DNA of 64,000 nt from Daedaleopsis sinensis (taxonomy: Eukaryota > Basidiomycota > Agaricomycetes > Polyporales > Polyporaceae), in NCBI GenBank assembly GCA_033807695.1, contig CM066302.1, forward strand, positions 3,782,001 to 3,846,000. Direction: 5' to 3'. Positions 2,895 to 47,310 of the stretch are shown in pieces. The notes under the pieces are model-generated. The model worked only from the letters and a program-made list of their open reading frames with translations, had not been told where the DNA came from and did no database searches. Position 1 is the first letter of the stretch. Every line of letters starts with the position of its first letter. The position numbers and the translations under genes were made by a program.

Positions 2895-3540
2895 CAGCGG
2901 GTAAGGGGAAGTTTTGGGCTAAAAGTAGAGCTTACTGATAGGTGGACCGGCGGAGACTAGGGGGTTAAAGTGCACGACCGTGGAAAGCAGGGCTGCAGAT
3001 CGCGTGTGCGGTCAACACGGACAGCGATCGGTGCTATGTCAGTGTGAGCATTCACGGGTAAGGGGAAGTTATGGGCTAATAGTAGAGCTTACGAATAGGC
3101 GGACCGGCAGACACAAGAGGGGTCAAGTTCATGTGCACGATCGTGGAAAGCAGTGCTGCAGATCGCGAGTGCGAGGCGGACGGGCGGGGACTAGGGGGTT
3201 AAAGTGCACGACCGTGGAAAGCAGTGCAGCAGATCGCGTGTACGGTCAACGCGGACAGCGATCGGTTCTATGTCAGTGTGAGCATTCACGGGTAAGGGGA
3301 AGTTATGGGCTAATAGTAGAGCTTACGAATAGGCGGACCGGCAGACACCAGAGGGGTCAAACTCATGTGCACGATCGTGGAAAGCAGTGTGGCAGATCGC
3401 GAGTGCGAGGCGGACGGGCGGAGTCTAGGGGGTTAAAGTGCACGACCGTGGAAAGCAGTGCTGCAGATCGCGTGTGCGGTCAACCCGGACAGCGATCAGT
3501 TATATGTCAGTGTGAGCGACCGCGGGTAATGGGAAGTTAA
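2895..3540. repeat. 234-bp tandem repeat array
   Basis: The phrase GGGTAAGGGGAAGTT recurs at 2899, 3056 and 3290, with a variant at 3524, giving periods of 157, 234 and 234 bp. Each full 234-bp unit holds two versions of a shorter block with GTGCACGA and GTGGAAAGCAG. The first unit lacks one 77-bp block. A 186-codon open frame through the array (2980-3540) is just the repeat translated and is not a gene. Plavaka copy A is inserted at its left edge. Confidence 0.85.
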
Positions 3541-3646
3541 GGGTGGTTATTAGTATAGCAGTTGCACAGACGTGCTGGACAGGAGACGCAGCATATGAGG
3601 GCGGAGACCGTGGGATGTTGGAATCAGCTGTTACATCATGCATGTC

Positions 3647-4384
3647 TTACAAACGCGCCTTCCGAAGTACAGTCAACGCTCTGAGGCACAGGTGTGATCG
3701 ATGATTGTGTTGCTCATCTGCAACGCGCATGACGTTGCACTCCAGCAGCACAAAGTCTCCTGGCTCGAGATATGATCGGCCGCTTGCAAGAGAGATTGCG
3801 ATGTCGACGTTGGATTGAGAACTGGGGCAGGAAGTGCGAGCTAAGAGCCGGCCACCGTCTACGCCTATGATGAATGGTTGTTAGAGCGAGGTCGCATAAC
3901 AGATGAGAGGCGGACTGACTGCTCAGCAGGCCGTACTCAACATGCAGCTGGGCAAGGCGGTCGATGTCCTGCTGTCTGTATACGTGGAGCTCAAGCAGGG
4001 AATGAGAGGGTGATGCGAGGTGGTCGGGTAGTGTGCGGACAAGGGTTCCCGGGATGAACACGAACAACGGCCGCTGCCTATAGTACAGCCTCAGTCCATG
4101 TTCGACCGCACTCCAGTGACATGAGTTGCTGACGTCCGCCAGAGGAAGCACCAAATCGCACGGGTTTGCGGATATCACACTTGCCTGGAGCAGGCTTGAA
4201 GAGAAGAGCATCAGTATCTGACGGGGAGGAAGACGAGAGAAATATGTTTGTACTGGAAGTTGTGTTTCAAGTCGCGAACGAGTACATCTTCGTCGTAGAA
4301 CGCATCGGCGAGGGTTCCCCAATCAGTTGATAACAGCGGGGGGAGTTCTCGCACACACGCAGCAGCACGGAGGGCAACTGACAT
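3647..4384 (-). CDS. Helitron-linked double-module family protein (gene 1)
   Basis: I do not recognise this protein. It is a three-exon gene starting at the ATG at 4384 (MSVALRAAACV) and ending at 3647. Intron 1 has a GTACAA donor near 4250; intron 2 has a GTCAGT donor near 3925 and a TAG acceptor near 3870. The product is about 200 residues. The middle exon has CHWSAVEHG, then FVFIPGTLV and a late D. The last exon has YLEPGDFVLLE and ends LCLRALTVL. The same pattern, W then hydrophobic-G-T, then L-x-x-G-D-x-V, then a hydrophobic tail, recurs in the next four genes, so this is the outermost member of a paralogous cluster. There is no signal peptide or membrane segment. Exon boundaries are inferred by eye. 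Confidence 0.55.
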
Positions 4385-4642
4385 CGAGGGAGTGGGGAAT
4401 GGAGAGCGTTGACAGAGATTACGCGGAAGGAGTGGTAACATGAACATGCAGAGCACGGGTGTAATCATCAACTCAGGGGCAGCTCAACGGCACAATATTA
4501 CCCACGACATCAGGACGGAGGACCATGTGGCGTGGGCGAGCATGAGACCCAGCAGCACGCGTGGAGGAAGGCATAGGTGAGTAGGAAGGTATGTATTGGA
4601 ATGATGTACATAAGCGGAGAGGGGAATGCATACGTTGAAAGG

Positions 4643-5515
4643 CTAAAGCGGCGACTGGTTGTCACACAGCATAGTAACTGAAAGTAAGTCGAACCATATC
4701 GCCCACCGGCCAGCCGTACGATGACGACGGCCAAGCTTCATCTCCAGCAGCACAATGTGACCGCGGTCTAAGACCTCGAAATTGAGCGTATTCATTCCCT
4801 CTTTGCAGGTGATCCCGGTTCTGGCGTCGTAGACGTGTGGGTATACCTATAACTGATATAAAATACGACTATCAGTGATGCAGAAAATGGGCACTTACCG
4901 GACGCGAGCCGAAACGTTTGTATGTGTGGAGCAAGGGAGGGAAACCGGCTAAATCAAGGTAAGAGTAGGTGGGATAGCGATTGAGGGCACATACTCGGAG
5001 CAGGGCGAGCCAGTTTAAGGAGGCGACACATCGCAATATGATCCAAGTCGCGTACCAAGTCCACGGCGACCTCAGAGCGCGCGACGTTCGAGTGTGAGGC
5101 CCGAACGAACTCCACACTGTCGATAGTGCCGACCACGAAGATGCGCACGACAGTGTCACGCATGGACAAGAACTGAGCGTGACCGTGAGGCCCCCATGTG
5201 GCGGTGGTAGGCACCCTAGACAGTGTGCGGGCATAAGGTCCCGGAATGACGCTGTCGGCAACGCGGTGGATACGCCTGCGTGTGGTCAGCAGCGCACACA
5301 GTGGTCCTCTCCCATACAAAACAGACGTACCGGACTACGGCCGCCGGGACGGTGCTTGCTAACACCACCGTGCGCTCGTCGAAGAGCTCGTGGGGTTCGA
5401 GAATCACCGGATCCGGAACCGCAGCGAATGCCTCTGGTGGATATGGCTCGTCGGGGGGAGGGGACCATGACAGTGAAGTAGATGTAGAGAGAGGGGTGGA
5501 GGGAGAACTCGACAT
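4643..5515 (-). CDS. Helitron-linked double-module family protein (gene 2)
   Basis: This gene of unknown function has at least four exons. It starts at 5515 (MSSSPSTPLSTSTS) with a Ser/Pro-rich leader containing FDERTVVLAS, and its first intron begins GTACGTCTG near 5327. The first module carries TTATWGPHGHAQFL, then IFVVGTIDSVEF and DLVRDLDHIA. The last exon carries VYDARTGITCKEG, NFEVLDRGHIVLLE and the ending WAIWFDLLSVTML, with the stop at 4643-4645. The last exon aligns closely with genes 3 and 5 (VYDGTERV and LYDARNKF at the same place; F-x-L-x-S-x-x-x-L at the end). The short exon between about 4980 and 4905 is the least certain part. A nucleic-acid-binding role is a guess from predicted beta-rich modules and Helitron linkage. 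Confidence 0.6.
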
Positions 5516-5941
5516 GTTGACTGATGGGTCTGACCGCGAAGGGGGTCGGCCATGTTTAAGTACTGTCGTGGATGTTCACTGACCCATTCGATGACGGAAC
5601 AGCAGGCCAGCAAAGATTGTGCATGAACAGTTGACGAGCAGAGAGGATGAGGTTAGCAGGTACGGCAGGTGCGTAAGCACAGCTATGGCGCTGCCCGTAT
5701 ATGATCGGCAGCGACTGCACGTGAACTGTACAATAAATCGTTTGAGTTTGATTGATCGTCGGAAATGGATGAGACCCGGTTCGAATGTGGAGGATCTGTA
5801 CAGTTCCTCGATAGAGTTTGATCGTACTGTGTAGTTCAGAAAGTGGGTGATGAATCTGAGTCACACACAGTGCTGGAGAAAGAGACTATACTCTAATGAG
5901 GAATATAACTAGCACATATAACTAGCACCGAACGAAACCTG
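5516..5941. other. intergenic spacer
   Basis: The 426 bp between genes 2 and 3 hold no convincing exon. The only visible structure is a short direct repeat of ATAACTAGCAC near 5905-5930. Confidence 0.5.
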
Positions 5942-6740
5942 TCAAGGGGCACGGACGAGTACGGTAATCGAGAGGAGGTAGAAGGTGACTGTCCAAACCA
6001 TGCCTACGCAGTCGCGAACGCAGAACACCTCAGCAATGACCAGATCGTCAACGTTCAAGCTGTCGAATGAGATTTCGGCCATGTACACGGGCACGCGAAC
6101 TCGCTCGGTACCGTCGTACACTCTGGGGAATGACTGTGAGGCAGTATTAGCATATACAAACAGATAGATAGGAACGCACGTTGAGGCGGCTAGCATTCAG
6201 TGTCTGTGGCACGCGCGTACCTGGTGCACGTCGGTGACAATTACGGTGGATACAGCGGTGTAGCACTTACTGATGGAGGGCGAAACTCGATCAATTAGAG
6301 CCCAGAGAGCGGTGCGGTCTCGCATGCGCAGAAAGTCTAGCTGTAGCATGCATCCGGCCGGCCTCAGTGCACCGGTGGAAGTCCGGACTGCCTCCAACGT
6401 GCCCACTGCGAAAATAGGGCACGGCTTCCCCTTTGACGTGCATAGTATGTCGGCATTGGAGCCCTCGCCCCACAGGCAGTCCTTGGACGCGCGGGTGAGC
6501 GGCAAGCCGTTAGGCGACAAGTAAGCACGCTGCATGAGGCGGTAAATGCGACTGCAAATCAACAGTTCAATGGGGGCTGGCATCCGTAAAAGCGGAGCAC
6601 ACGTACGGTATTTCTGCACGGTCTACCCAAAGATCCAAGAACAGCACGTCTTCTTCGATTGCGTCTCCATCCGGGACGGACCGGGAAGCAATAGGGCCGG
6701 TGGGGGGCACGTACAGGACAAGTTCAAGGGAGGTAGACAT
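5942..6740 (-). CDS. Helitron-linked double-module family protein (gene 3)
   Basis: This multi-exon gene starts at 6740 (MSTSLELVLYVPP). Its first exon ends IEEDVLFLDLWVDRAEIPY. The second exon carries LSPNGLPL, CLWGEGSNADIL, GKPCPIFAVGTLEAV and QLDFLRMRD. The last exon carries FPRVYDGTERVRVPVYM, SFDSLNVDDLVIAE and the ending WTVTFYLLSITVLVRAP, with the stop at 5942-5944. The middle exon aligns with gene 4 (L-S-P-x-G-L, then W-G-x-G, then GKP-x-x-F-x-V-G, then Q-L). The introns begin GTGTGCTCC (near 6609), GTAAGTGCT (near 6270) and GTGCGTTCC (near 6179). A TATA-like box lies about 55 bp upstream. Function is unknown; the double-module layout matches its neighbours. Confidence 0.65.
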
Positions 6741-6791
6741 CACGAAGCGAGCGAGGTGCAGTGGACCCTGTAGCAGACGGAAAGGATGTCG

Positions 6792-6798
6792 ATTTATA
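6792..6798 (-). promoter_or_regulatory. TATA-like box for gene 3
   Basis: TATAAAT on the minus strand, 52-58 bp upstream of the ATG at 6740, a normal spacing for a fungal core promoter. Confidence 0.5.
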
Positions 6799-6912
6799 GG
6801 AGCAGAGAGGACAAGAAGACCGCCGAACAAGATAGCACTCCTGAATGATGTGCGACGGCAGCGGTCGGCGGACAGGACAGGAGGTGATTGATAAGAGGGC
6901 GTACTGATCGAA

Positions 6913-7756
6913 CTATTGGGGTGCGCAGTGCAAACGCACAACCGTCCGAAACCGGATGGACATGTCCCAGGCTTGCCAGCGTGGTCCGAATGTTGGTCGT
7001 TCAGAGCGCGTCACGTAGCACAGTGAGGCTACAACGTCGCCGCGTCTTAAAGTGGAGGGATGAATGTTAGACAAGCGAGGCTCGGTGGAGTCGTAAGCTC
7101 CAGTGAAGTGCTGCAACACATAGATGAGCACGGGACAGTGTGTGTGCGAGTTGGAAGATACTTGCATGACGGGTGACCACTGACGACGCCGCGGATGCCA
7201 ATAAGGAGGTGGATGTGGGTGCTACATTACACTGTCAGAAACGCACTGGAGTGCATCAGAAGGTACCCACGTTGTGAAGGTTCAGACATACGAGCAATGA
7301 AGTGATGACCTTCACGGTCAATCTCGCGGAACAGGTGCAGCTGCATCGACGTACATGCCTGTCCAAAGGGCAAGCATGGGTTCCACCAGACCTGCTCCAC
7401 TAAGCCAACCACGCGGAACAACGCAGGTTTGCCCATATGAAGGAGATCACACTCCATGTCACCCACGCCCCATGTGAGAGTCATGGGGATGTTCGACAGC
7501 GACAACAACCCAGGCGGTGAGAGTTCCAACTGGGCTCTCAGGACCCTGTACATCGCTCAGGCTTCAGCGAGGCGCAAGAGCCGCAGTGTGGGACTTACGG
7601 TGTGGTGACGGGATTCACAAGGGAGGGTGCGAACTCCGTATAGTACCAGCACGGTAGCTGGATGTGTTCTGGTGAAGTATCCGCGTCGACGTCGGTGGGG
7701 ACCGTGTACTGTGACAATGTAGGCCCGTTGGAGGCAGAGTGTTGAGCAGCGACCAT
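6913..7756 (-). CDS. Helitron-linked double-module family protein (gene 4)
   Basis: The gene starts at 7756 (MVAAQHSASNGP). Exon 1 ends SLVNPVTTP at a GTAAGTCCC donor near 7602. Exon 2 begins after ATGTACAG near 7550 and carries LELSPPGLLSL, TLTWGVGDMECDLL, GKPALFRVVGLVEQV and QLHLFREIDREG. A GTATGTCTG donor near 7292 closes it. The last exon carries VLQHFTGAYDSTEP, STLRRGDVVASL and the ending WDMSIRFRTVVRL, with the stop at 6913. Exon 2 is the clearest bridge between family members: its L-S-P-x-G-L, W-G and G-K-P blocks line up with gene 3. The acceptor of the last intron is uncertain. The product is about 230 residues, soluble and of unknown function. Confidence 0.63.
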
Positions 7757-8082
7757 CGTAGAGAGAGCTCGAATGCTACAGGTGTGACGGTAGACAAGGA
7801 GTAAGAGAGAAGGAGCAAGGACAGACCGTGTCGTAAAGAGCACATGGGAGCCGGGAAGGACATGAAAACACGCTAGTTTGTGCAGGAGCCTGGAGCACAC
7901 GTGACCTGTTCACGATAGTATGATAGTATGATCAGTTATTACATGTCAATGACAAGGGCAACACGCGGAGAATAGGTAGACAATGTTCATTGGGAACAGG
8001 TGCATAATACAGGACAGGGACGACACAGGAAATAGAAACAATTAGCATCGCGGGACAGAACATAACAACACGGAATGATGCT
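7757..8082. other. intergenic spacer
   Basis: The 326 bp between genes 4 and 5 show no supported gene. There is a small direct repeat of ATAGTATG near 7915-7930. Confidence 0.45.
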
Positions 8083-9491
8083 CTACATATTGTCGTCGTA
8101 ATCGGGAACGACCGCTGGACCGTCAATGGCGGTGCCGGGGGGAGCCTCATACAGCATAGAGAAGCTCTGCAGGTCAAAGCTGACCTCCCACGAGCTCCAA
8201 CCGCGGGCAGATTTAGCTTCCTTGGTGGCTTTCCATCGAGTGTAAGAAACCTCGAGCAACCCTATGTCGCCAGGACCGATAATGGATGATTCGATCGAGG
8301 CCATGTCCTTCTTCGCGCGGAACTTATTCCGAGCATCGTAAAGACCGTCGAAAGGATCGATCTGTGAGATGTTGGTCTCAGACACGAAAGTGATGAAAGG
8401 GGGGGTGGTATGCTCACAGCAGGCCGGTCCAGGCCTTTGACAACTCTGGTCTGAAAACGGTTCGCGTAGACCACAGGAGAAGGCGGTTCTATAGCGGGTA
8501 AGCGACAATAGAAAGTGACAGTAGGCGAGAATCATACCGTCGGTGCACGAAAACCGTTCATACAGCTGGCAGAGTGCGTGGTAATCTCCCTGATAAGGTA
8601 ACTCGCCAGACATGTTGACCCTGCTATGGGGGTTGCCATCCCGGTCATAGAACCACTTACTCTTGACCTTTATCAACAGCCAGATCGTCAACGGCTTGTT
8701 GTTACGGTCACACAGCACGCGCTCTGTCTTGTAACTGGTACCCCAGCGGACGTCGGCTGGCAGCGTCCCGAGCGAGAAGCGACTGTTATCAGGGTCGGTC
8801 TTGATGGCGAAGTCCTTCAAGCGGCTGCGCAAACCGGTGAGGTAGGCAAATAGCGAGGAGCACAGTCATACCTGAGAACGTCGAACGGCACGTAGTCCAC
8901 ACCCTCGAAGGAGGGATGGACTTTCGCGGGCGGTGAGTCTGCATACTCAAGCTCCGACGGTTCCCTCTGGCCGGAGGTCACCAAATCCGTAGACGGTTCC
9001 ACAGCGGGGCTAGACATCGTAGTCACCGACCACGCACTCGGGGTGGAAGGGCTGTGCAGAAGAGCAGAGGTGGAGATTCAGTCACGTATGCGATAGCTCG
9101 GGATACCTCGAGAACTCACCGTATCGTGTCCGAGGACTTAGTCGACGTTGGAACACGGTCGCTGTCCCCGTGGCTCAGAACCGACCGAGTTGCAGGAGCC
9201 GCGGTCAGCACAAGTACACCAGGAACGGCACTGACGGTGCTGGCGGTCTGGGCGGGGGTGGACCCGGTGAATCCATCCTGGGGGGACGAGTCCTGCACAG
9301 ACAGGTGTGAATGCGTGGAAGAGGACGAAGAGACCAGTGCGGCTGGATCCGACTGCACGCTGTCGTTACTTCTTCAACGCCGGTCAGTAAGCGGAACACA
9401 GCGAGTAGGACGAGTGGACTCACTCAACGCGCGGACGCTTGTTGTCCGGTCCGTCAGCGGACAGACTTGTTCTGGAGCGACGAGGCGGCAT
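8083..9491 (-). CDS. Helitron-linked double-module family protein, long form (gene 5)
   Basis: This is the longest member, around 350-400 residues. It starts at 9491 with a basic leader (MPPRRSRTSLSAD...KRPRVE, which could act as a nuclear localisation signal), then a Ser/Thr-rich exon around 9345-9120. The next exon ends VDYVPFDVL. The first module has FSLGTLPADVRWGTS and WLLIKVKSKWFYDRDG. The second has DPFDGLYDARNKF, SIIGPGDIGLLE and WEVSFDLQSFSML, with an acidic tail ending PDYDDNM at 8083. The C-terminal part aligns well with gene 2. Introns have GTGAGT or GTATGA donors; the boundaries between about 8540 and 8390 are uncertain. It is divergent from gene 6 across a 409-bp spacer. Confidence 0.62.
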
Positions 9492-9900
9492 AGCGAAGAT
9501 GTGACGGAGTGTTTGTGGATGAAAAATGGGGGGACAGTGTTGAAAGAAGAGGGCCGATTTTATCGCGGCAGGACAAAAGGCAAGGTAGTACGCGCTCCAT
9601 GCTATGGCGGACTCTGGGTACCCGTCCGTTTGCAGCGCATGAGCAGTTGAAGCGCTGTGGCATATGTGCCTGGATAGACGATCGCGGATGCAACGAATAG
9701 CTCCACACCCGATGGGATCGGCGGCGCGGAAGATAGTATGAGAGGGTTGCGCCGCGCAGTGCCGATTACCGGTCGGGACCGTGAGCACTAGGGTAAAGAA
9801 ATGGGAGCTGGGAGAAGTCAGCCGCCATGTCACCCGCGGCGGCACGGGGTATATAACTAAATTGAGAACAACAGAGATCACATACTCAGTATCAAACATC
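9492..9900. promoter_or_regulatory. divergent promoter region of genes 5 and 6
   Basis: This 409-bp spacer separates two genes that point away from each other. A clear TATATAA lies at 9850-9856 on the plus strand, 45 bp before the ATG of gene 6. A weaker ATAAAA-type sequence lies on the minus strand near 9555, about 65 bp upstream of gene 5. Confidence 0.5.
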
Positions 9901-10993
9901 ATGGCCTACTTCATGAGTAAGTGCGTCTTCGCCGACAACGAGCTCAGTGTTGATCTGTTGCAGCGGAGAACGGACTATGTCGCAACAAGTGGCCGTTCGA
10001 AATGGGCAAGCCTGCCAATCAGAAAGAGGACCTCCCTGCTTGGATGTGCTTGCCGAACACGTTCGAGGCGCTGGCGGAGCGGGTTTCAGTCGACCGAGCA
10101 GGATACGGCGCGCCGCAAGTACTTCTCACTCACAATAGCCTCGACGCGAAGGGGGTTGTGATGCAGTTCATGGTACGAGTCCAGGGCTTGGTATCGGAGG
10201 CTAGTTTGTACCCTCTGGGCAATTGGAACGGGTGAGCATGAACATTGTCGTTGTTTCTGGGCTGCTAACACACATACAGGGAAGAACAGGGTGCCCCAAA
10301 GGCGATGCAGACGTTGACGTTGACCGCCGGAGGGGTGGCGGACGCGTTCAATCCCCAATGCGACGGCATAATAGCGTTGGAAGAGATTATATGCACAGTG
10401 TTGGGCTCACCGCGAACGTCTCGGATGGCGCGGAAGGGATCCATTCGCTTGAAGCGGAGAGTCTTTACCATGGTGAGTGTTAATTCCAATTTCAGTGGCA
10501 TCAGTCGCGATATAACTTCGTCCCAGGTTCGCGAGGGCACGGACGAGACTAAGAAGGTGGTGCTGAGTACGAGAGACGACCCTCTTGGCAAGGCGGGGAT
10601 GATATCAGCCCGGTGGATTGTCGACCATCGGGTGAAGTTAGGTGTCCAACGTGAAGGCGGCGGAGTGTTCGCTGTCCCTCCCATGGGCATCAGGAAGGGC
10701 GATTTCGTCGACGCTCTAGTGGCGGTGGAAGTCGTCAGCATGAAGACTCGAGATGGACGCAAGTATGAGGTGCAGTTCTCTCCGCAGGAGGTCGTACGCT
10801 TAAAGAGCGCTGCGGAGGCGAAGGTGAGGTGAGATGGCTAGTTCGTGCGAACAAAACTGACAGAGCTGGTGCACAGGCGCTGATCAGCAAGATGCCTCGT
10901 GCCCCGAGTGCTCCCAACAATCAGCATGCGCCAACTGTCAGTCGTCCGGACGGAATGGTGTTCGAGCAAGAGGACGTTATGGACACGTTGTAG
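9901..10993 (+). CDS. probable divergent member of the double-module family (gene 6)
   Basis: Five exons join cleanly: 9901-9916, 9964-10231, 10280-about 10470, a fourth from about 10528 ending near 10824, and a last one from about 10876 to the stop at 10991-10993. Donors are GTAAGT, GTGAGC, GTGAGT and GTGAGA, and every acceptor is CAG, with phases preserved. The product is about 290 residues. It has FMVRVQGLVSEASLYP followed by a gapped hydrophobic stretch, then KLGVQREGGGVFAVPP, GIRKGDFVDAL and YEVQFSPQEVVRL. The GDFV and final F-x-x-x-x-V-x-x-L pattern resembles the C-terminal module of genes 1-5, though identity is low and the YD motif is not evident. The function is unknown. The clean exon chain supports a functional gene. 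Confidence 0.68.
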
Positions 10994-11676
10994 AGATTGA
11001 CGACCGAATGTGTATGTAACAGTAGTCTACAAAAGCATTACCTGCATCGAATACTCCTGCGTAGCCACCGTCAGCATATCACACCACGCTCCCTGCAAGG
11101 CAAGCGACTGGCCGGGTTAGAATGCATACGCTCGTGCTATGCGGGTAAGCAGATATCCATCAACGCTCCGTATCGAGCGGGGAGGAATCAGCGCATGGGA
11201 AACACAGAGTACAGAAGAGCGGTTAGACGTCATTGCTACCATCGCCACCCCAAAGTTCTGTTCGGGTGGACGGCAGAGCAGACGGGGTAAACACCTATCC
11301 AGGAAAATACGGCGGGCAACAGGCAGCGGATGCAAGCCGCAGTAATGGCCGCAGTTGAACCTGGAATGGTCGAATAGAAAGTGCAGATCTGGTCGGGGTG
11401 CGGTGGCACAGATAGAGTGTGCAGATCGAGTGCCGTACTCGTAGCCCCTCTTGACATTTGAGAGCAGGCTAGATGTGACAGTCAGCCGAGGAGGCGTTCG
11501 GAGATATGGTGAATATTGGGTGGGTGGAAGCAAGTATCACGGACGAGCAGCACGACTGCGGCCGCCACACCCGGCGTAGACAGGGAGCGGAAAGTGAGCA
11601 TCCACTGTGATTAATAAATACACGAGCGGGAAACAGCGACTGAGAACATGTGCTCGACCGCTCAGACAGACCAAAA
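10994..11676. other. intergenic region without a supported gene
   Basis: The 683 bp between genes 6 and 7 contain a 138-codon minus-strand frame (11117-11533). It has neither the family motifs nor convincing splice context, so I do not call it. A TATA-like TAATAAATA near 11612 belongs to gene 7. Confidence 0.4.
11612..11620 (+). promoter_or_regulatory. TATA-like box for gene 7
   Basis: TAATAAATA, 57-65 bp upstream of the ATG at 11677. Confidence 0.4.
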
Positions 11677-12196
11677 ATGTCGTACATAGTAAGTCGTACC
11701 GCAACTGTTGAAGACCCGGAGCTGATGCGCTGCAGCCCATCTCCATCCGCTGCTTAAAGGTGCACCCCGACGCACACTGCGACTACGTGTACACGACGGC
11801 CCATCGATATACCTCTGCGGGAGGAATAGACGTCCCTCTGACGGATGGCTCTTTCACGTTCCAAGGATCTGCGAAGATGGTGAGGCTGTTCGTGAAGACT
11901 AGCCACGGGGGTACGGTGTGGAGACGGTACACGGTGTATGTCGCAGAACCTGGCGGTGTCGTGAGGACGGCGTCCGGCAGGAAGCTATGGAACAGCGAGG
12001 CGCTGGTATTCAAAATGGGAGTCGTCAACTCAGACGCAGCCATGGTGAATATACGTGGCGACGACACGTACGGGGCGAGAAGCGCACTGAAGAAGTAAGT
12101 ACTCCTCCACGTCATGGAAGAAGAGTGCGTTAACAATCCAGCAGGGTGATGCGCTTCTTGGACTACGAGGTACCCGAAGTGCTCAGAGTTCTATAG
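11677..12196 (+). CDS. small Helitron-linked protein (gene 7)
   Basis: Three exons: ATG at 11677 (MSYI), an intron from the GTAAGTCG donor (11689) to a GCTGCAG acceptor near 11735, a central exon ending RSALKK near 12095, then a GTAAGTACT intron of about 50 bp and a last exon ending VPEVLRVL with its stop at 12194-12196. The product is about 150 residues: GGIDVPLTDGSFTFQG, VRLFVKTSHGG, RRYTVYVAEPGG and a basic stretch. It looks like one beta-rich module and could be a shortened relative of genes 1-6, but I cannot align it with confidence. Its 3' end overlaps the end of the convergent Helitron helicase gene by 34 bp. Confidence 0.55.
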
Positions 12197-15100
12197 ACGA
12201 AGTGGTTAGCGTGGCGACCACGGGCAGTAGTCAACCATGCGGCATTATAACTTACGATTTCCCTGATGCAATGACGCTTTGTCTGTTCGCTGTCGTGATA
12301 CCAGCACTGACCGGAGGAGTCGATGTACCGGCAAGTGTACTGTCGATGTCCGTAGTAAACGATGGCACAAAGCTCGTAGTCAGCACGCACATCACCTTGC
12401 TCTATGTGGACGTACCTGGAAGGAGTAAGACCGAGCACAGTGCTGTGTTCAAATACCAACAACGGTGGCGGAGCCACGATTTGCATGCTACAGTCCAGAG
12501 TTTCGCGGCAACGCACACAACGCACGGTGGTAGTTTGCATGATCTGACAGTTAATATAGTCTTGTATTGGGACGGTGTCCATGTCGGGGAAACTGGAGCG
12601 GGTCCACTGGACGGTGGGCAGCCACAAATAGCATCTACCGCAGTCGGGAATGTAGGTGGCGGGAGAACCGCATGTTAAGCACTGGCCGACAGGCACAGCA
12701 TAAGGCACGGGGCACATCAGCATCAGGCGGAGCAGATGAGAAAGTATAACTCCGGACTGACCTCGACGGGGGAATGATACGCTGTCGATGACCTGGAGGA
12801 TGTCGCGTAACTTGTTCCGGCACAATTCGAGTTCAGCGGGAGCGGCAGCAACGAGCCTGAAGGACGCAGTCATGGTCGTAACAAGGCCGTTCTGAGGGCA
12901 GATTGTGTCTGTCCATGCGGGATCATAATCGCTGGTCAAGTTCCACAGGACGGTGAGAATGACGTCGTACGCACTAGCGGGGTCAGACCGGTCGCATACC
13001 ACCCCTGTGCGGGAGGGCGTAGGCAGTCCATTCGAGGACGGATCCTGCACAGTCACAGCACGATCATACGCAGCCTCGTCGGGTACTGCCATCGGATTAA
13101 TGCGCGGTCTGCGAGCGCGCGTAGCGCCCCACATTTCGCCGGTAGCTGCTCGCTTCTTCGGGAGCGAGGATGAGTGTGGCAAGGTGGGATTGAGAGCGTG
13201 CTCAGGTGCACCACTGTCAGAGGAAACCAGCTCGTGTTCAGCGGCAGACGACCAATCCAGAGCGGCTGGCACAGACGATGGTACATACCTAATACCTTTC
13301 CATACACGATAAGCGGCGAGTAACGCCATCCGCGTGGAACCCACGACGGACGCAGGCAAGCTGCCAGACAGAGTGAGCCGAGTAATCTCGTCCAAGAGTT
13401 CAAGCTCGCGGAACTCGCGTTTAAGAGATGCCGAAGTCCCGCCTGTGATCTTCGCAGCGTCGAAACCATCGATAATAATTGTATCTTGCAGAGACGAGCT
13501 TCTGGAAAGACAAGTGTACATAGACTGGTGATTCTTGCAATATTTCAGGTGAACCGCGTTCGCAAAGCGGGTCCGGCCTTGACTACCGAAGTCAGTCATG
13601 GAGAAATTTGGCAGCACCATCATCTGCTCCCGTTGGATGGATACCACAAGATCGTCCACGGGTAACGTGCAGCGGATGCTCCTGCGAGAGCGCGTCAGCG
13701 GTATCACGTTCTCCTCTAATCCCTGTAGCTGAACCACCCTAGGCGGGTTGACCAACTTCACAAAAAGAACATCTAGCACCAGTCTACCGTTGACCGTATG
13801 AGACACAATGTCGTGCACAACAGCCTCTGCACCATTGGTCGCGCACAGTTCAGTGGCCTCATTGTACTTCAGCAGAACAGGCATGCCCACGCACAGCTCC
13901 AAAATCCCAGGATGATGTTGAGTCAACGCGGGTGGAATTTCCCACAGTGCAGCTTGTAGTAGGGGCGGAATGTTGTTGGACTTGCGAACTGGATCGACTG
14001 TGCTGGCATACGTTCGCTGTGCCTGACGTACGGACGTGCTGTCGACGTTCTTGCCCCACTTGTCCATGGAGAAAAACCGGAACAGAGGAACTCCAGCATC
14101 GGCTGCGAACTGACGCGCCCGCACTGAGTTGATAGCGTCGCGGTGTGCATTACGGGCGGTGATGATAGACACATGCCTGAAAGTAGGAGACATCAGCGAA
14201 TTGTCCCCAGCGTGAGGACGGCAGACTCTACTCATCAGCAAGCGGATGTCATCTGTTGTGCAGCGAGCATAGCGCATGTTCTCAAGTGCAAGCCTGAACA
14301 TGCCGTCCTCTTTTGACTGACCCCGCTGACGCATGTTCTGACGAAGAATTACGACAGTTGTGAATTGGTGCCACAACGCTTTCCCAAGCGCGTTTTTCTG
14401 CTGAGGGCCGGACAGAGAAGCGGTCCATTTTCCGACAGAAGCACAGTACAATGCAGGTGCAGACCCGGGTGGAGGTAGTTGTGCAAAGTCGCCAGCGAGG
14501 ATGATGCTTTTGCCACCGAAGCTGCTTGTGGTGTTGTTGAATGCTTTGCAAAGCTGGGTGTGAATCAATAGCAATGCTAGACATGATATCATGGAAACCT
14601 CATCCAGGAAGACGAGGTCGACCCGCTCTAAGCGTCCTCTGATTTTCTCCAGAGCTTTGAGAGTCGTCAGGCCATCAGCCGCCGAGTTCCCGAGCCCGAG
14701 CACAGAGTGGTAAGTAGACCCGCCGACCAGAGCGGCACTGGTTCCGGTAGGACCAAGGACAATGAACCGGTAGCCTTCCCCGCGCTTATCAAGGAATGTC
14801 ATCGTGGCAAGCAGCACACGGGACTTGCCGGTCCCACCCATTCCGGCCAAAACCATCCGCAACTGCTCTTTCTCATGATGATGCAGATGTCGAGCCGGGA
14901 TCAAGAACGCGCGGAGCTGTTCATCATTCAGTGAGTAGTCCTCGATCACTCCATGCAACAAAGAGATATGCGGGTCCTGGGGACCACGGGATATGTCAAC
15001 GTTGTTCGTACGAAGTCTTTCTAGCTCCTCCAGCGTTACCTCGCGGATAACGCCTTCATACTGTATACGATAAGCGGGGTCACGCCGCTCAGCATCTGCG

Positions 15101-16257
15101 GAGCGATCCTGGTCGGATTGATTAACAGATACGTCGGAATTGCTATCACCCTTCATCAAGTCCAGCACCCGTTTCCGTGCCGTCTGCACGTCTTGTTTCC
15201 ATTTCGCGGGCAACTGAAAGGTAGTGTGAGCACCGCGGGGTGATGGTTCAAGGCTGATTGGTGGTGTAGCACAGGGTGCATTACCAAGAATCAAGTTGCT
15301 AACAGCCTTCATTTCCGCGCGATTCTTGGCAGTACGAGGACCAGTGGCACCTTCTTCGAGCAGAGACTGCAACGAGCCCTCTGTATGCTCCCAGTAAGAG
15401 TCGTCCACCATATCTACCCCGTCGTCAACATCACAGTAACCGCTCAATTGCGAAGGGATTGCTCCTGATATGTCGAGCGTGCTAGATCGACGCAAGGCCG
15501 AGAAATCGTCCCGTGAGTCCAAGCACTCGTATAGGACATTCATATTTTTCATGATGCTGACGTGATCGGGGAGGAAATGAGTGGACTCGAACGCAGCTGT
15601 CCAACTCACACCGTCCTCCCTAAGATCACCCCCTGTCCTCCATCCACCGGGCTTGAACAATACAAGCATTGTGAACGAGTAGTTCTCGCGGTCTCCGCGA
15701 TCTGGACGAGGCAGAGGCGCACCCGCGAAGTTAAGAGTATATTTTTTGGTACGGGAACGCTCTACAACAGCATGTGTAGAACGCAACGAATGAGGTTCCA
15801 AAAACCGATGATACTTAGAGGGCATTGTACGTGATCTGCCAGTACTGGTAGCGTCATCGCCGTCGTCTGACGAGTCCGAAGACGAATCACTGAATGGGTC
15901 GATGCCGTCATCAGAGTCCACAGGCCGCAAGTGTTTCTGGGGGACTTTCTTCACATCGGTAACCGTGAGGTACTCGTAAAGACTCATACTAGCAAAATGC
16001 GACGGACGACAGGTATAGTCTTGTACCTTGTTGATTTGAACGACACCGTCCGATGTGTGACCTAGTATAACAGGATCCCGGCTCGCCTCCACTGTATGCT
16101 GAGCGGACTCTGAGTCTGCCGGGATATTAAGTGGACCGGCTGCTCTACAGTACGGTGTCCAATAGAACACTCGGAAGACATGACTGGTGTAATGGTCCGG
16201 GTTCCCCAACAAATACGCGCACACAGCAGGGCCTCCAGTCTCAGCAGATGCAGACAG
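12163..16257 (-). CDS. Helitron RepHel, C-terminal part: PIF1 helicase plus USP-like domain
   Basis: This is the downstream half of the Helitron replicase. It begins with the linker block CAYLLGNPDHYTSHVFRVFYW typical after the Rep domain. The helicase has Walker A GMGGTGKSR (around 14820-14845), Walker B VFLDEVSM (around 14595-14620), LAGDFAQLPP, RQNMRQRGQ and the motif VI-like YTCLSRSSSLQDTIIIDG: a complete superfamily 1B set. After about residue 1100 comes a tail like ubiquitin-specific peptidases: AYDVILTVLWNL, CxxC pairs (CLTC, CVRC), PPPLLVFEHS and YELCAIVYYGHRQYTC. The usual catalytic Cys before AYD reads Ser, and the expected His before YT reads Gln. The open frame extends to an ATG at 16359 inside the Plavaka end, adding 34 foreign residues. 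Confidence 0.93.
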   Translation of the reverse strand: MSASAETGGPAVCAYLLGNPDHYTSHVFRVFYWTPYCRAAGPLNIPADSESAQHTVEASRDPVILGHTSDGVVQINKVQDYTCRPSHFASMSLYEYLTVTDVKKVPQKHLRPVDSDDGIDPFSDSSSDSSDDGDDATSTGRSRTMPSKYHRFLEPHSLRSTHAVVERSRTKKYTLNFAGAPLPRPDRGDRENYSFTMLVLFKPGGWRTGGDLREDGVSWTAAFESTHFLPDHVSIMKNMNVLYECLDSRDDFSALRRSSTLDISGAIPSQLSGYCDVDDGVDMVDDSYWEHTEGSLQSLLEEGATGPRTAKNRAEMKAVSNLILGNAPCATPPISLEPSPRGAHTTFQLPAKWKQDVQTARKRVLDLMKGDSNSDVSVNQSDQDRSADAERRDPAYRIQYEGVIREVTLEELERLRTNNVDISRGPQDPHISLLHGVIEDYSLNDEQLRAFLIPARHLHHHEKEQLRMVLAGMGGTGKSRVLLATMTFLDKRGEGYRFIVLGPTGTSAALVGGSTYHSVLGLGNSAADGLTTLKALEKIRGRLERVDLVFLDEVSMISCLALLLIHTQLCKAFNNTTSSFGGKSIILAGDFAQLPPPGSAPALYCASVGKWTASLSGPQQKNALGKALWHQFTTVVILRQNMRQRGQSKEDGMFRLALENMRYARCTTDDIRLLMSRVCRPHAGDNSLMSPTFRHVSIITARNAHRDAINSVRARQFAADAGVPLFRFFSMDKWGKNVDSTSVRQAQRTYASTVDPVRKSNNIPPLLQAALWEIPPALTQHHPGILELCVGMPVLLKYNEATELCATNGAEAVVHDIVSHTVNGRLVLDVLFVKLVNPPRVVQLQGLEENVIPLTRSRRSIRCTLPVDDLVVSIQREQMMVLPNFSMTDFGSQGRTRFANAVHLKYCKNHQSMYTCLSRSSSLQDTIIIDGFDAAKITGGTSASLKREFRELELLDEITRLTLSGSLPASVVGSTRMALLAAYRVWKGIRYVPSSVPAALDWSSAAEHELVSSDSGAPEHALNPTLPHSSSLPKKRAATGEMWGATRARRPRINPMAVPDEAAYDRAVTVQDPSSNGLPTPSRTGVVCDRSDPASAYDVILTVLWNLTSDYDPAWTDTICPQNGLVTTMTASFRLVAAAPAELELCRNKLRDILQVIDSVSFPRRGQSGVILSHLLRLMLMCPVPYAVPVGQCLTCGSPATYIPDCGRCYLWLPTVQWTRSSFPDMDTVPIQDYINCQIMQTTTVRCVRCRETLDCSMQIVAPPPLLVFEHSTVLGLTPSRYVHIEQGDVRADYELCAIVYYGHRQYTCRYIDSSGQCWYHDSEQTKRHCIREIVSYNAAWLTTARGRHANHFVYRTLSTSGTS

Positions 16258-16292
16258 CATCAGCAAAATCACACTTGATGTTAGAGACCTTA
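16256..16292 (+). repeat. Plavaka copy B left inverted repeat and AG target duplication
   Basis: AG at 16256-16257 is followed by CATCAGCAAAATC... from 16258. The first 35 bases match the reverse complement of 23629-23663 at 30 positions. AG also follows the right end (23664-23665), giving a 2-bp target duplication. Confidence 0.85.
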
Positions 16293-16470
16293 CGGTATGT
16301 TGGAAGTTACAGCACATGTTAGAGCTTAGTGACAATGGACTTGTGATCATCTTAGACAAATCTTAGAGCTTACAGTACTTACAGTGCCATCCTCCAAATT
16401 CGAGTTGACTTCCCTGCCAAAGTCCGAGTCACACTAGTATTCAAGGCGGCGAGAGACAAGAAGATATGTA
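16258..16470. repeat. Plavaka subterminal repeat zone, transposase side
   Basis: The words TTAGAGACCTTA, TTAGAGCTTA, TCTTAGACAAATCTTAGAG and CTTACAGTACTTACAG are packed into about 130 bp next to the inverted repeat. In CACTA elements such words bind the element's accessory protein. The identical zone lies at 2682-2894 in copy A. Confidence 0.65.
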
Positions 16471-19400
16471 TTAATATGCTATCTCGAATGCATGGTGATC
16501 CGCATACTTGTTGACGTAGAACGTACGGAACGCATCAAGAGCCTCTTCTGGTCCAATCCCCTGGGGAAGGAATCCATGACCGCTCACCCCAATCAGATGA
16601 GCAGCGCGCAAAACACAGTCCAGACTGATCACTTCGAGCGCGAGACGCCTCTGCCGTCCATGCCCCTCCATCTCGGCAGCCACCACCCACATTCCCGTGT
16701 CCGGGTCCGGCTCGTCATCGACTGGCAGATACCAGGACACTAGGGCACATTCGTATAGCTTGTTGAAGTAGCTGAATGAGAACAGCAGCTGCACACGTGC
16801 AACATACAGTCCACGGAACCCTGGTCCAAACCCGGCAGTACCTGGGTCCTTCGACACGTACACACAATCGCGACGGGGTCGGCCACCTCTCCAAGATCTC
16901 ACGGAGCGGATGCGCTCACGACGCATTCCACGCGACCCAGATGGATCGCTAGGAGCAAGGAAGGTCGCGATCGCCGAGGGGGATATCTTGATCCTGCCAT
17001 CAAAAGAGGGACATGCAGCGGGCCCTGCTTGCGCTCCGGTAAGCCCTGTACCTGGGTTCAGCTCCTCATAGAGGAAGTACCGGATCAGCGATGGCAACGT
17101 TGGGAACCCGAGGTGCTGGGCAAGGTCTCCAATCGGCTTGGGAAGGTTTCGGACTGTGGTGCACGAGTCAGTAAGGTCGCATAGTATGTGAGAAGCGACC
17201 GTAACACAGCGGCCAGTTGCAGAGGATTCAGACATACCTGGGGTCTTTGCAAGCACGACCTCTGCCAGTACGTCCAGCTCATTAACAGTTCCGGAATCGT
17301 CGTCATGATCGTCCTCGAGGCCGTGTGGGAGACGGGCTTCGGTCATAGCAGACCCTCCCGGCAGAGCTGCGAGGTTCATAAGTCAGTTATTGGCAATTAA
17401 ACTGTACGGCGCATGTAAAGCCAGACGTGTCACATACATTCTAAGCTAGGATCATGATCGTGGTCGGAATCCGAACTAGAATCGGAGTCAATATGGAGAG
17501 AGCGATTGATCTCGGCGATACGTCGCATGTAGTCGGGTAGGCGAGGGCATACACCGTCGAGAAGGCCACGCGCAACTAGGTCAACACGGAGGGCGGCGAG
17601 CTTGTCGAGGCGCTCATTGGTCATTAGAATCTGGCCGAGAGCGTTGTTCTTGCTGGATCGCCTGTACGGTCGCTTGACGGCCACGATATGCTTGGCTTCC
17701 ATCATCGAAGAACAGAGGCCGTTGGGTGATCCAAATAGACGGATGTTGCGAATGTAGTGCTTCATCGCGTGTTGTCGTGGGAGGGAAATCGTCTCACGCA
17801 CACCGCTGGTCACGAATATCTCGCGCTCTTGATGAAATCGAGTAAGTGCGTCGTCAATTTCAGTCAAGGTGTCCTCATCGATGGTATCCCGTCGGACTAG
17901 ATAGCAGAAGTCGAGGAACGCGCTGATTGCGCGCACCATCTGAGGGGGTAAATGGCCGGCTATAGCAGGTAGATAAACCTAATGGTGCGTATATTAGTGT
18001 AGCGAAACTCGTGCATCTGCATATTGCATGCAGCTATTGAGATATTTACCTTCATGAGCGCTTTCGAGTCGTCGCCGGTCCATTGCTTGAACCCACGTCC
18101 TTCGGGGAAGCGTCGTAGTCCTGGGAAGGCTGGGGCGGCCGCAATTCTGGAGGACCATGAACTCGGAGGTCAGCAACTCGCTGGTCAGATCAGACTTATA
18201 TGGCACGTACTTTCGGTCAATATCGGCCATGATCTCGGCGGCGGCCGTCTTGCCATGCGTCAGAATGAGATATTCTTCTACCCACGTAACCAAATGGTCC
18301 TTAAACGTGCCCTTAATGATTTGATGAAGTAGGTCGGGAGCAATCAGCTCATGAATGTCAGCGCGGGGGAAGTAGGCGGTGAACGGCTATACAGATCCAA
18401 GTCACAGATGAGCTCACTCATCGGTGTGGTAATGTCGAGAAATCAAAACACACCGTAAGATAGCTAATAATTCCGTGCCCATCCCAAAGATCACGCATGC
18501 TGAGACCTTCGTCCAGGTGGGCGGCTGTCAGCTCATGAGATCGTCGTGGATGCTGACCGGTATCAAGGTCATCTGGGGGAGCTGCACATCTGCGCGTTGA
18601 TCAAGGTCAGCGTCCGAGCGCACAGGTCAATATTTGAACATACTGACTTCGGACACCAGCCTTGAACGGTGCAAGCCAGTAGGACTTGTTCTGGATAGTC
18701 GGCAATATACGGGCCGAAGCCATAGATCACCCGACGGTAGTATCCATCGCCACACCGAACAATGTCGAACGTGGTCATATACGGGCGAAGCCGCTCGAAG
18801 ATGTATTGCAAGGAGGTGTGAAAAAGTTCCCGTCGGAATTTGCGGAACTCGGGGTCGTTCGTGTACTGTCTATCCGCTATAAACGGGCCGTCAGGAGTAG
18901 TAGGTGATGGTGTAGAATGCGCAGAGAATGATACGGAGAACGCCAGTGTGACGGCTGAACAGCGACGAGGGAGACCATCCGGGCCCCAAGGTCGGAGCTC
19001 ACAGCGATGATGCAGCCCTCGGCGAGTACAGTCGTTGCTTAAAGATTGGGAGGGGATATGGTACTGAGAGTGAACAATGTGTGACGCACATTTGGGAATG
19101 GCAAGAAAGCCGATGAGGGTGATTGCATTGCGATGGGCACGGCGTACACTGTTCGTCACCCATCCATTCGTGAGGTACAAGGGATAGTATTCATTCTGCC
19201 CTGTTGCGACGGAGACAGTAGTCTTGTCACTGCCCAGAATTATCGTGTTGAGTGTGACGCCATGATTTCGGGGATCCATGCTGAGCGTGTTCTAAGAGAA
19301 CATTCGTTCAGTTCGAGACAGGCCCTGGTATGATTCACGAAAGAACACGAAGTGTTACACATACCGCTTGGCCCCACACCCAGTCTCCCGACGCAAAGTC

Positions 19401-20330
19401 CTTGTAGACGCGTTGTCCCTTCTCGTTATACACACGCTTGGGCACATAATCGCTATCATCCTGGAAGTCTGGATTGGCCATTTGATTGTGAAGGACCCGG
19501 CGGGGGTCGCGGAAGAACACCATATACTCCTTGATCTTCCATGCGGGTACCGCGCGCGGCGTATCTACTGCAGGTCCGTTGTGAACGATCGAGAAGTGTT
19601 CCCAGTCCGGTTCGCCATTGTTGATTAACCGTATGTGGTCGTAGAGATCAGCACGGCCGGCAAACGGGGGGTCCTGTCCTTCGGCAAAGAAGCAGGCAAG
19701 GATCTGCATAAGTTCATCCAACTTCTTCCCCGACATCTGCTCGCGGCGGTACAAGAAGTCGGCCAACTCAAAGTGTGCGCGGGACTGGAACGGATAGTAG
19801 CTGTTGCCAATGGGATGAGCACGAGGCGGCGGTGCGGGTGGGGGAGCTCCCTCTGGCAGAAAGTTTCCATGCTCGTCGCATCGTCGCGCTAGTGGATAAG
19901 GAACATTAGTACTTAGCTGAATCTGATCACGAAAGCACGAGCAGATCGGTCAAGACGTACCATTCATTAAAGGGTGGTACTCTACCCGTGAACGACTGCG
20001 AGTTGAAGATGATGAGGGTTGGGGCATTGTGCGATTTGGTGAGCTACCGGGGCCGGGAGAAGGCGGCTCGGGACTACTGGCTGGAGGCTGATCATCCTGG
20101 AAGATCGGAGGGGGCGAGGAGGTATGCAAGTGGGGGCCAGGACTCGGGGGAGGCGGCAAAGGAGCAGATGAACTTGAAGGCGTGTGTGGACGTTGTACAA
20201 GGCGACGATGCTTGGCGTTGACATGCCTAGTCATTCCTGAGTGGTCGGAGAAGAGTTGATTGCATCCTTGTGCTGCATAGGGACACACAATATTGCGGCG
20301 ACGGAATACATGCTTGGTCGAGCGGCCCAT
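16471..20330 (-). CDS. Plavaka transposase (copy B, apparently intact)
   Basis: Many-exon gene. It starts at 20330 (MGRSTKHVFRRR) with a C2H2 zinc finger, C-P-Y-A-A-Q-G-C then H-V-N-A-K-H, followed by a Pro/Ser linker. Exon 2 (19888-19365) has CDEHGNFLPEGAPPPAP, YYPFQSRAHFELADFLYRR and MSGKKLDELMQIL. Exon 3 starts at 19291 with the LGSDKTTVSVATGQ motif, whose Asp is taken as a DDE catalytic residue, then RRAHRN...FLAIPK. Later exons give QGWCPKC, FPRADIHELIAPDLLHQ, GRGFKQWTGDDSK, SLPRQHAMKHY, FGSPNGLCSS and the terminal FYVNKYADHHA. The order and motifs match Plavaka transposases. Splice phases checked at several junctions (for example DIDRK to IAAAPAF) stay in frame, and no disabling change was seen. 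Confidence 0.92.
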
Positions 20331-20589
20331 GCTACTAGTAGAACGAGTCTGAGTGGTGACAGACGGGGTACTGTGTGGTCGAATAGTGCAAGGTTGCCGT
20401 CGATAGATCCAGAAGAGCAAAGTGAAGGAGAGACTGAGCTGTTGCGAGTCGCGCCCTCAATTCTGGGGGGAGGACTTGGTGCCACAGCGCTTGCGTAAGC
20501 AGGAGCCCCCGCCGCACGGACCACCGCCCAGAAAATCGCTCAATCTTCACGACCGTGCGGCGTCAAGTTTGTCCCCCTCCCCCTCCATC
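20331..20589. promoter_or_regulatory. divergent promoter spacer of the two Plavaka genes
   Basis: The 259 bp separate the transposase ATG (20330, minus) from the accessory-gene ATG (20590, plus). I see no convincing TATA box. An open frame from 20422 runs through it into the accessory gene, so that start could be further upstream. Confidence 0.5.
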
Positions 20590-23338: not shown

Positions 23339-23663
23339 TAGCCGATAGGTATCATACTGTCATTCGTGAAGTAACATCTCGCTCCAATACACGTAGAGCG
23401 TCTTTCGCACCTATGAAGTGATTTGAATGCACGATGCGTATGCGAGCAGTAGTAGTTGTGCGAAGTTACAAACATCTTATCAAGTCCGTCTTAGTGAGAT
23501 CTTACAGGACTTCGGTAAGTACAACGACTGATATAAGGTGCACGGCCTTGTATAAGCCAAGGTACATAGCTGAGGTAAGGTGGTTGAAGTTATACCTTAC
23601 ATGTCTTAGACATCTGGTGTAAGTTCACTAAGGTCCCTAACTTCAGGTGCGGTTTTGCTGATG
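23339..23663. repeat. Plavaka subterminal repeat zone, accessory-gene side
   Basis: CATCTTATC, GTCTTAGTGAG, ATCTTACAGG, GGTAAGG, CTTACATGTCTTAGAC and CACTAAGG crowd the last 190 bp, resembling the words at the other end. The last 57 bp also supply the foreign final codons and stop (23606) of the interrupted Helitron Rep half. Confidence 0.6.
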
Positions 23664-23665
23664 AG
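23629..23665 (-). repeat. Plavaka copy B right inverted repeat and AG target duplication
   Basis: The element ends ...GGTTTTGCTGATG at 23663, the complement of the left end with five mismatches in 35. AG follows at 23664-23665. Confidence 0.85.
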
Positions 23666-46400: not shown

Positions 46401-46619
46401 GATTCGAGAAGTCGTCAGCAGAGCCTGAGAGAGTTGGCGTGGGGGTGTTTCTGCGTACCTGACAGGTCCATGGAGTCTCGCGGGAATCGGTTGGGTGCTT
46501 CTGGCGGGAGAGCACTTTCGAGGAGGGGAGTGACCCATGTAGTACGGATTTGGGCGAGTTTTGAAAGTGGGCGGACAGAGCGACGACGGGGTGGGTTAGA
46601 TGCGGAGCGTTCGACGCTT
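43475..46619. other. gene-poor part of unit 1
   Basis: 3.1 kb with no recognised gene. Two short frames persist in both units: an 80-codon frame at 44720-44962 (plus) and a 62-codon, heptad-like frame at 45102-45290 (minus, VEQHITDVEQHLKGVQ). Neither has other support. Confidence 0.4.
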
Positions 46620-47310
46620 TATGTAGATATGTGTTAGTAGTCGGACGAGTTAGAAATGGAGGAGTTATGGGCGAAATTCGGACGTACACACTGAAATGTA
46701 ATGAAATGACGATTTTGACGACATTTTCAAACGTCTTGCACGACGTCGAGACCATGTGCGCTGGATGCAGACTGTTCAATGAGTTCTAGAGACATGTGTT
46801 AGCACTCGGGCAAGTGAAAACTGAATGAGTTATGGGCGGATTTGAACGTACCCCACTAAAATGTAATGAAATGGCGACTTTGACGAGAATTTCAAACACG
46901 CCGCGCGGCGGCGAGACCAGGTGCCCTGGATGCACATCGTTCAACGCTTCCTGCAGATATGTGTAAGTACTCGGACAGGCGAAAATCGAAAGAGTTACGG
47001 GCGGATCTCGGACGTACCTAGTGAAATGCAATGAAACGGCCGCTTTGACTAGAATTTCAAACGTGCCGCACGACGGCGAGAGCGTGTGTGCTGGATGCAG
47101 AACGTTCAACGCGTCCTACAGATGTGTGTTAGTACTCGGACACTGTGGAACTGACAAAGATACGGACGGATCTCGGACGTACCCAGTGGGATGTCATGAA
47201 AAGACGGCTTCGGCGCGAGCTTCAGACACGCCGCCCAGCGGCGACAGCGTGTGCGTCGGATGCAGGGCGTTCACCGCTTTCTGTAGATATGTGTTAGATC
47301 CCGGACGGGC
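46620..47310. repeat. 165-bp satellite, end of unit 1
   Basis: GATATGTGTTAGTACTCGGAC-like starts recur at about 46624, 46790, 46955, 47121 and 47285 (spacing 164-166 bp). Each repeat also carries GAAATG-AATGAAA, ATTTCAAACG and GGATGCAGA-CGTTCAACG. Divergence between repeats is moderate. Confidence 0.85.

Follow-up and report, generated by a model that had tools for sequence, protein, structure and literature searches.

A Helitron interrupted by Plavaka transposons

The window, the whole 64,000-nt stretch of Daedaleopsis sinensis DNA analysed here, carries a copy of a large multigene Helitron that consists of a RepHel gene and a block of accessory genes. The helicase half of RepHel (12163..16257, minus strand) belongs to the PIF1 family, with the Walker A motif GMGGTGKS and a match to PF05970 at 1.9e-17. 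The Rep half (about 23664..26518, minus strand) contains DUF6570 and Helitron_like_N (PF14214, 4e-28), with the HUH motif HLH and the two-tyrosine motif YVTDYVTK. One RepHel combines a two-tyrosine HUH endonuclease with a PIF1-type helicase, the pairing by which a Helitron is recognised. Whereas RepHel of the chromosome C9 copy is a single open frame of 2315 aa, the frame in the window is broken by a Plavaka transposon (16258..23663, minus strand; 7406 bp) with CATCA...TGATG termini and an AG target duplication. A second, inverted Plavaka, 100% identical to the first, occupies positions 1-2894, and the C9 copy has neither of these two inserts. Between this left Plavaka and gene A lies a tandem repeat (2940..3543) of 2.6 copies of a 234-bp unit. 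The setting beside a Helitron replicase given in the preliminary description needs two corrections: RepHel is split, and the element runs out of the window on the left, where more relatives lie at C3:3776587-3776898 and C3:3774241-3774853.

The presumed 5' end of the Helitron (26890..26913, minus strand) includes a hairpin with a 7-bp stem and was placed at 26913, where identity with the C9 copy breaks off. Five further places share some 72-97 bp of this terminus, two of them stopping at the same base and the remaining three at +3, +11 and -14. Only this terminus was read, the 3' end being beyond the window.

The accessory genes and their linkage to RepHel

Five related minus-strand genes, with frames ending at 3647, 4643, 5942, 6913 and 8083 as first described, make up the core of the block. 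Gene A (3647..4384; exons 4254-4384, 3920-4194 and 3647-3864) encodes 207 aa, gene B (4643..5515; exons 5331-5515, 4995-5275, 4899-4948 and 4643-4846) 239 aa, gene C (5942..6740; exons 6607-6740, 6271-6551, 6180-6220 and 5942-6133) 215 aa and gene E (8083..9017; exons 8872-9017, 8538-8824, 8418-8488 and 8083-8361) 260 aa. These four genes can be modelled with GT-AG introns 46-59 nt long. The model of gene D (6913..7756; exons about 7599-7756, 7272-7545, 7162-7221 and 6913-7110) is conceptual because the intron before 7221 is out of phase. With that qualification, sequence comparison confirms A-E as spliced paralogues. All-against-all BLASTP joins B with C (4e-13), E (2e-8) and D (2e-5), and C with A (4e-4) and E (5e-4), the remaining pairs being not significant (D-E 0.02, A-B 0.5, A-E 2), so that gene A is tied to the family through C only. 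The two shared modules proposed earlier, with their motifs, are present, except that gene A, a putative OB-like paralogue, has no YD motif. W28, L38, D81 and R162 are invariant in a hand-assembled alignment of 16 sequences. Profiles of the two halves match A-E, gene A at 3.5e-22 (module 1) and 9.9e-14 (module 2), a circular result in that A-E, gene A included, are rows of these profiles. Row sets for the alignments were chosen, among several tried, for keeping in register; alignment A6 still has some row ends and the rows of gene A out of place, and alignments A2 and A5 were not folded because of misplaced rows.

Two plus-strand genes complete the block. Gene F (9901..10993; exons 9901-9916, 9964-10231, 10280-10472, 10527-10823 and 10877-10993; 296 aa) shows a possible distant relationship to module 2; the partial fit suggested for it earlier is weak, with an hhalign E of 5e-4 and a probability of 31%. 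Between gene G (11677..12196; exons 11677-11688, 11736-12094 and 12145-12196; 140 aa) and A-E, BLASTP gave no significant match; the start taken for its second exon is one among three candidates. Gene G is convergent with RepHel and adjoins it in all nine of the rows found.

Homologues lying mostly far from Helitrons had been named in advance as evidence against Helitron carriage. The opposite holds in this one genome, where 101 of 105 hit rows (7 of 9 clusters) obtained with queries E, B, C, F and G, A and D being left out, lie no more than 25 kb from the lineage's helicase, an area equal to 0.87% of the genome. The lineage was drawn as the full-length helicase rows of at least 1373 bits together with two fragments on C11, all further rows scoring below 700 bits; since the helicase search scored 34 of 133 candidates, the number of its loci is a lower bound. 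Relatives of gene B occur on C2, C4, C9 (two elements), C11 and C12 and at C3:1010 kb, and those of gene D on C4 and C11. Linkage and paralogy within this genome support the view, already put forward, that a fungal Helitron, here one lineage, carries the genes and that they expanded in it.

Such linkage could also arise if the genes were passive cargo, captured downstream of RepHel by 3'-end read-through and then duplicated, with no role in transposition. Capture downstream of RepHel has been proposed for the cap genes of Pleurotus ostreatus HELPO1 (PMC4289320, in the portion available), and one of the seven RepHel loci, that on C7, has none of the accessory genes. However, gene order is mostly kept across diverged elements, accessory-gene identity drops in parallel with RepHel identity, dN is below dS in every computable case, and the copy at C3:1010 kb is the only one that these five queries place outside Helitron surroundings. 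We consider passive carriage unlikely.

Predicted fold and sequence relatives

AlphaFold models of E and C were built from their own reading frames, with exon 3 misread, and reached pLDDT values of 46.5 and 64.8. Within the limits of such low-pLDDT models, the two agree in the order of strands and helices and in their matches to proteins of the SSB type. After shorter strands, the E model has strands at 46-59 and 68-74 followed by a helix at 78-94, and the C model has strands at 46-58 and 66-73 followed by a helix at 76-89; the stretch expected to form strand 3 is not truly modelled in either. Their best Foldseek matches in the PDB are SSB-type OB proteins. The preliminary description had envisaged tandem OB-like folds, one per module. 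An OB-like fold of the SSB kind is indeed predicted, with low to medium confidence for the family, but the tandem arrangement was rejected because both models align with single OB proteins across both modules (typically over residues of about 40-229 in E and 40-202 in C), which makes the modules in these models halves of one OB-like barrel.

Alignments to T7-type and giant-virus SSBs rank among the best and the longest of the structure comparisons, and in a viral library the gene C model matches giant-virus proteins that include P31K, a reported ranavirus SSB. On the favored reading the predicted structure is nearer to phage T7 gp2.5 and the giant-virus SSBs than to RPA. The tail of T7-type SSBs has a counterpart in one paralogue: the last 12 residues of gene E carry a net charge of -3 to -6 in all five elements examined, making E the only one of A-E with a conserved acidic C-terminal tip. 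Genes A-D as a group lack such a tail because the net charges of the 11 C-termini of the A-D type examined span -3 to +4.

Sequence searches gave no known relatives. Pfam yielded no match to A-E at E<=1, from RPA-family profiles or others, and one TrkA_C match (0.2) to the 16 members at E<=10; the sole match among PDB sequences was Clp1 at E 1.5. The family is not filed as a T7-type SSB because a sequence profile match to known families was not found. Public proteins gave no homologue at E<=0.001 with gene E as query (349 candidates) and none at E<=0.01 with alignment A1 (1983 candidates), which is weak evidence of absence because the search covered pieces of at least 0.55 of the query and the accessory genes are spliced and of small size. 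A helicase query retrieved 71 public proteins at E<=1e-20, Grifola frondosa included, so fungal proteins were covered.

An RPA-like identity by sequence finds no support in these results. REPA_OB_2 (PF16900) has a single match in the genome, at C2:3844002, next to one of the six matches to PF01336. The genes could still derive from eukaryotic RPA and have diverged past recognition, given that plant Helitrons carry RPA-like genes (PMC4683698, in the part accessible) and that Teb1, Stn1 and RPA chains are also among the OB structure matches. Against this origin stand the missing profile match, the rank and length of the T7-type and giant-virus alignments, the long helix predicted after the second long strand, which is a hallmark of the T7 type, and the acidic tail of E, a feature known from the SSBs of prokaryotes and phages (PMC5686142, likewise in part). 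We regard an RPA origin as improbable.

A possible role in rolling-circle transposition and known systems compared

Helitrons produce long single strands, and we know of no account of how fungal Helitrons protect them. Among the matches listed from the open-licence literature, bioRxiv preprints excluded and sources seen in part, no description of OB- or SSB-like genes in fungal Helitrons was found. We favor the reading, which seems to us somewhat more probable than not, that RepHel is accompanied by duplicated paralogues predicted to be single-domain OB proteins, Helitron-encoded and SSB-like but not recognisably RPA. In rolling-circle transposition the accessory proteins would coat and shield the single strand displaced by RepHel. 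Gene E, with its acidic C-terminal tip, may be the member that contacts RepHel or host replication proteins, and A-D could be partner subunits, such that duplicated genes would supply an RPA-like hetero-oligomer. Different members might also serve at different steps of transposition, as the preliminary description suggested.

It is also conceivable that the genes encode beta-rich proteins, OB-like or other, that do not bind ssDNA and instead influence how the element is silenced or regulated. Fold alone is no proof of function, and other transposons of fungi, including Helitrons, contain TET/JBP genes with a presumed anti-silencing role (PMC12730594, as far as its available text goes). We find this doubtful, as the nearest predicted-structure matches are mainly ssDNA-binding proteins, rolling-circle elements produce ssDNA and an acidic tip like that of E is typical of SSBs.

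A conserved block of SSB-like genes other than RPA is a candidate answer to strand protection in fungal Helitrons, and the cap genes of mushroom Helitrons could gain a function from the same reading. The block also raises the question whether giant viruses and rolling-circle transposons have exchanged genes. More tentatively, this Helitron lineage may encode a multi-subunit ssDNA-binding complex that has no relation to RPA, arose by duplication of SSB genes of a viral (T7/giant-virus-like) type and is co-inherited with RepHel. If true, it would link rolling-circle transposons to the machinery with which giant DNA viruses replicate, and the element would resemble a self-contained rolling-circle replicon more than a simple transposon.

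The following comparisons draw on the accessible portions of the reports cited. Like the RPA-like genes found in Helitrons of plants and animals, the family would supply a Helitron with an accessory gene of the OB-type, ssDNA-binding kind, here by prediction (PMC4683698). Those genes are RPA homologues by sequence, whereas A-E have no RPA profile match and form an expanded family with one predicted OB domain per gene. Fusarium FoHeli3 likewise has an extra, Helitron-only ORF without known domain, but upstream and in the opposite orientation, and the accessible text reports no RPA-like genes in FoHeli elements (PMC5148889). HELPO1 of P. ostreatus, whose RepHel has no RPA domain reported there, is similarly a basidiomycete RepHel with downstream genes of unassigned function and without conserved domain (PMC4289320). 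Its elements, of up to 13.7 kb, carry one to four cap genes; capA, capA2 and capB are about 45% similar to each other, and capB accompanies RepHel in other basidiomycetes (PMC4289320). In the present element seven paralogues (A-E and two beyond the window) were detected in addition to F and G, and a fold is predicted, the cap genes being compared by description only. With T7-type SSBs (phage T7 gp2.5, Enc34 ORF6 and giant-virus relatives) the family shares the acidic tail on E and, so far as the weak E and C models predict, a single OB domain in which a long helix follows the second of the long strands (PMC5686142, PMC11253617). It differs from them in having no sequence match, in the tailless A-D, and in being encoded by spliced, eukaryotic genes present as several paralogues in one transposon.

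The Helitron copy in the window

The left part of the window, up to 26913, is occupied by a minus-strand Helitron whose replicase-helicase (RepHel) lies in two pieces, a Rep half at ~23664-26518 (minus strand; PF14214, with HLH as its HUH motif and YVTDYVTK as its two-tyrosine motif) and a PIF1 helicase half at 12163-16257 (minus strand). Between them sits a 7406-bp Plavaka DNA transposon (16258-23663) with CATCA...TGATG termini, an AG duplication and PF18759. A second Plavaka, inverted relative to the first and identical over its visible part, occupies the left window edge (1-2894); the two copies, in opposite orientations, are both inside one Helitron. Judged by coordinates, the Helitron copy on contig C9 of this genome (51.6 Mb, 24 contigs) has neither insert, because the offset of matches between C3, the contig on which the window spans 3782001-3846000, and C9 shifts by 7408 bases at each place, equal to one insert plus a 2-base duplication. 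The two Helitron copies are 99.85% identical over 7374 aligned bases (nine mismatches, one gap), and therefore the unit has been copied recently. The 5′ end was set at 26913, the point where C9 identity stops; 72-97 bases at this end, which has a hairpin with a 7-bp stem, are common to five other places, two of which stop at the same base. The 3′ end is left of the window, beyond the sequence read.

Several repeats were also observed. A 234-bp tandem repeat (2.6 copies, 2940-3543) lies between accessory gene A and the left Plavaka. Right of the Helitron, 35555-64000 holds a head-to-tail ~11.85-kb unit (~2.4 copies in the window, 96.6-97.3% identity), each with a frame of 294-296 aa; inside this repeat are arrays of a 165-bp tandem unit (46591-47318 and 58420-59138; ~4 copies, 74-76% alike).

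Paralogy and selection among the accessory genes

Beside RepHel are five minus-strand genes, A (3647-4384), B (4643-5515), C (5942-6740), D (6913-7756) and E (8083-9017). GT-AG splicing across 46-59-nt introns could be modelled for A, B, C and E; in D the phase of one intron does not fit. Several exon boundaries are backed by homologues in other elements, such as exon 3 of E in C2. When all pairs were compared, five were significant (B-C 4e-13, B-E 2e-8, B-D 2e-5, A-C 4e-4, C-E 5e-4) and the others did not reach significance individually; these matches bear out the relatedness claimed in the preliminary description and show A-E to be paralogues. An alignment of hand-assembled rows, 16 sequences in all, shows no variation at W28, L38, D81 and R162. 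The same element holds two more relatives beyond the window, one at C3:3776587 (35% against C, E-value 3e-8) and one at C3:3774241 (53% against B, E-value 5e-15).

Gene F (9901-10993, plus strand) had been thought to fit module 2, the family's second half with the YD motif, in part. A weak match was recovered (E-value 5e-4, probability 31%), and F may be a distant family member via this module. The small gene G (11677-12196, plus strand) is convergent with RepHel and overlaps its end.

By Nei-Gojobori counting, 29 exon comparisons covering E, B, C, D, F and G had dN values of 0.16-0.85. For 17 of them dS could be computed (1.4-3.8), giving dN/dS of 0.08-0.42; in the other 12, as in both helicase yardstick comparisons, dS was saturated. 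One F exon, taken in a wrong frame, yielded no comparison, and some comparisons set paralogue against paralogue because the C4 stretch used does not include its gene B. Computed dN/dS is well below 1, though the ratios are rough owing to dS saturation.

Linkage and co-divergence with RepHel

Protein searches of the D. sinensis genome with E and B (E-value ≤0.001) and with C, F and G (≤0.01) returned 105 rows (E 21, B 37, C 16, F 22, G 9), which are exons rather than independent genes and include the window's own. Within 25 kb of a same-lineage helicase, a territory of 0.87% of the genome, lie 101 of the 105 rows and, by cluster, seven of nine; in this one genome, the homologues are thus near Helitrons and not mostly far from them, as expected of the Helitron-borne family first suggested. 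The exceptional clusters are at C12:1941 kb, which adjoins Rep fragments, and C3:1010 kb. At C3:1010277-1011121 is a gene B relative outside its own lineage, ~11 kb from an other-lineage Rep match, possibly a stranded copy.

Gene G adjoins RepHel in C3, C9, C2, C4, C9b (the second C9 element, 519-531 kb) and C11. The accessory block is present at six of seven RepHel loci of the lineage (C11 counted as one); the helicase loci listed are a minimum, drawn from 34 scored candidates out of 133. Against linkage counts the C7 element (helicase 67%), which has a RepHel and none of the accessory genes in the 16 kb downstream. The order RepHel-G-F-E-D/C/B/A, with G and F reversed, is seen in C3, C9, C2, C4 and C9b, some genes being missing from the matches in some of these; in C11 a further D-like gene separates G from F. 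Measured against the window copy, helicase identity falls from 66% (C2) and 62% (C4) to 50% (C9b and C11), and the identities of E, F and G drop in the same order, with small reversals between C9b and C11. Separately, C11:2430001-2550000 contains many nested and inverted Helitron pieces within ~113 kb, mostly >99.8% identical, and in them several RepHel and accessory genes, some full and some truncated.

Proposed role and known systems

Most probably, the accessory block would furnish the strand that RepHel displaces with ssDNA-binding proteins; E would be the member contacting other proteins, and A-D would be partner subunits. Linkage to RepHel is computed and the fold is predicted, and we infer each functional step. 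An SSB-like function for the block seems somewhat probable; the stronger reading, a multi-subunit SSB of virus type (T7 gp2.5 or giant-virus-like), is distinctly tentative. Confidence in both is slightly reduced because only one of five predicted structures of gene C reached pLDDT 65.

Among the publications listed by our literature search, none described such an SSB-like Helitron gene set. Accessory ssDNA-binding genes of plant and some animal Helitrons are known, in an excerpt of PMC4683698, as RPA homologues. What would be new here is a predicted non-RPA, one-domain, multi-paralogue SSB-like set; its co-divergence with RepHel is new as well. The nearest precedent, as excerpted from PMC4289320, is Pleurotus ostreatus HELPO1, whose downstream genes are of unknown function and without conserved domains; these and the present genes possibly belong to the same family.
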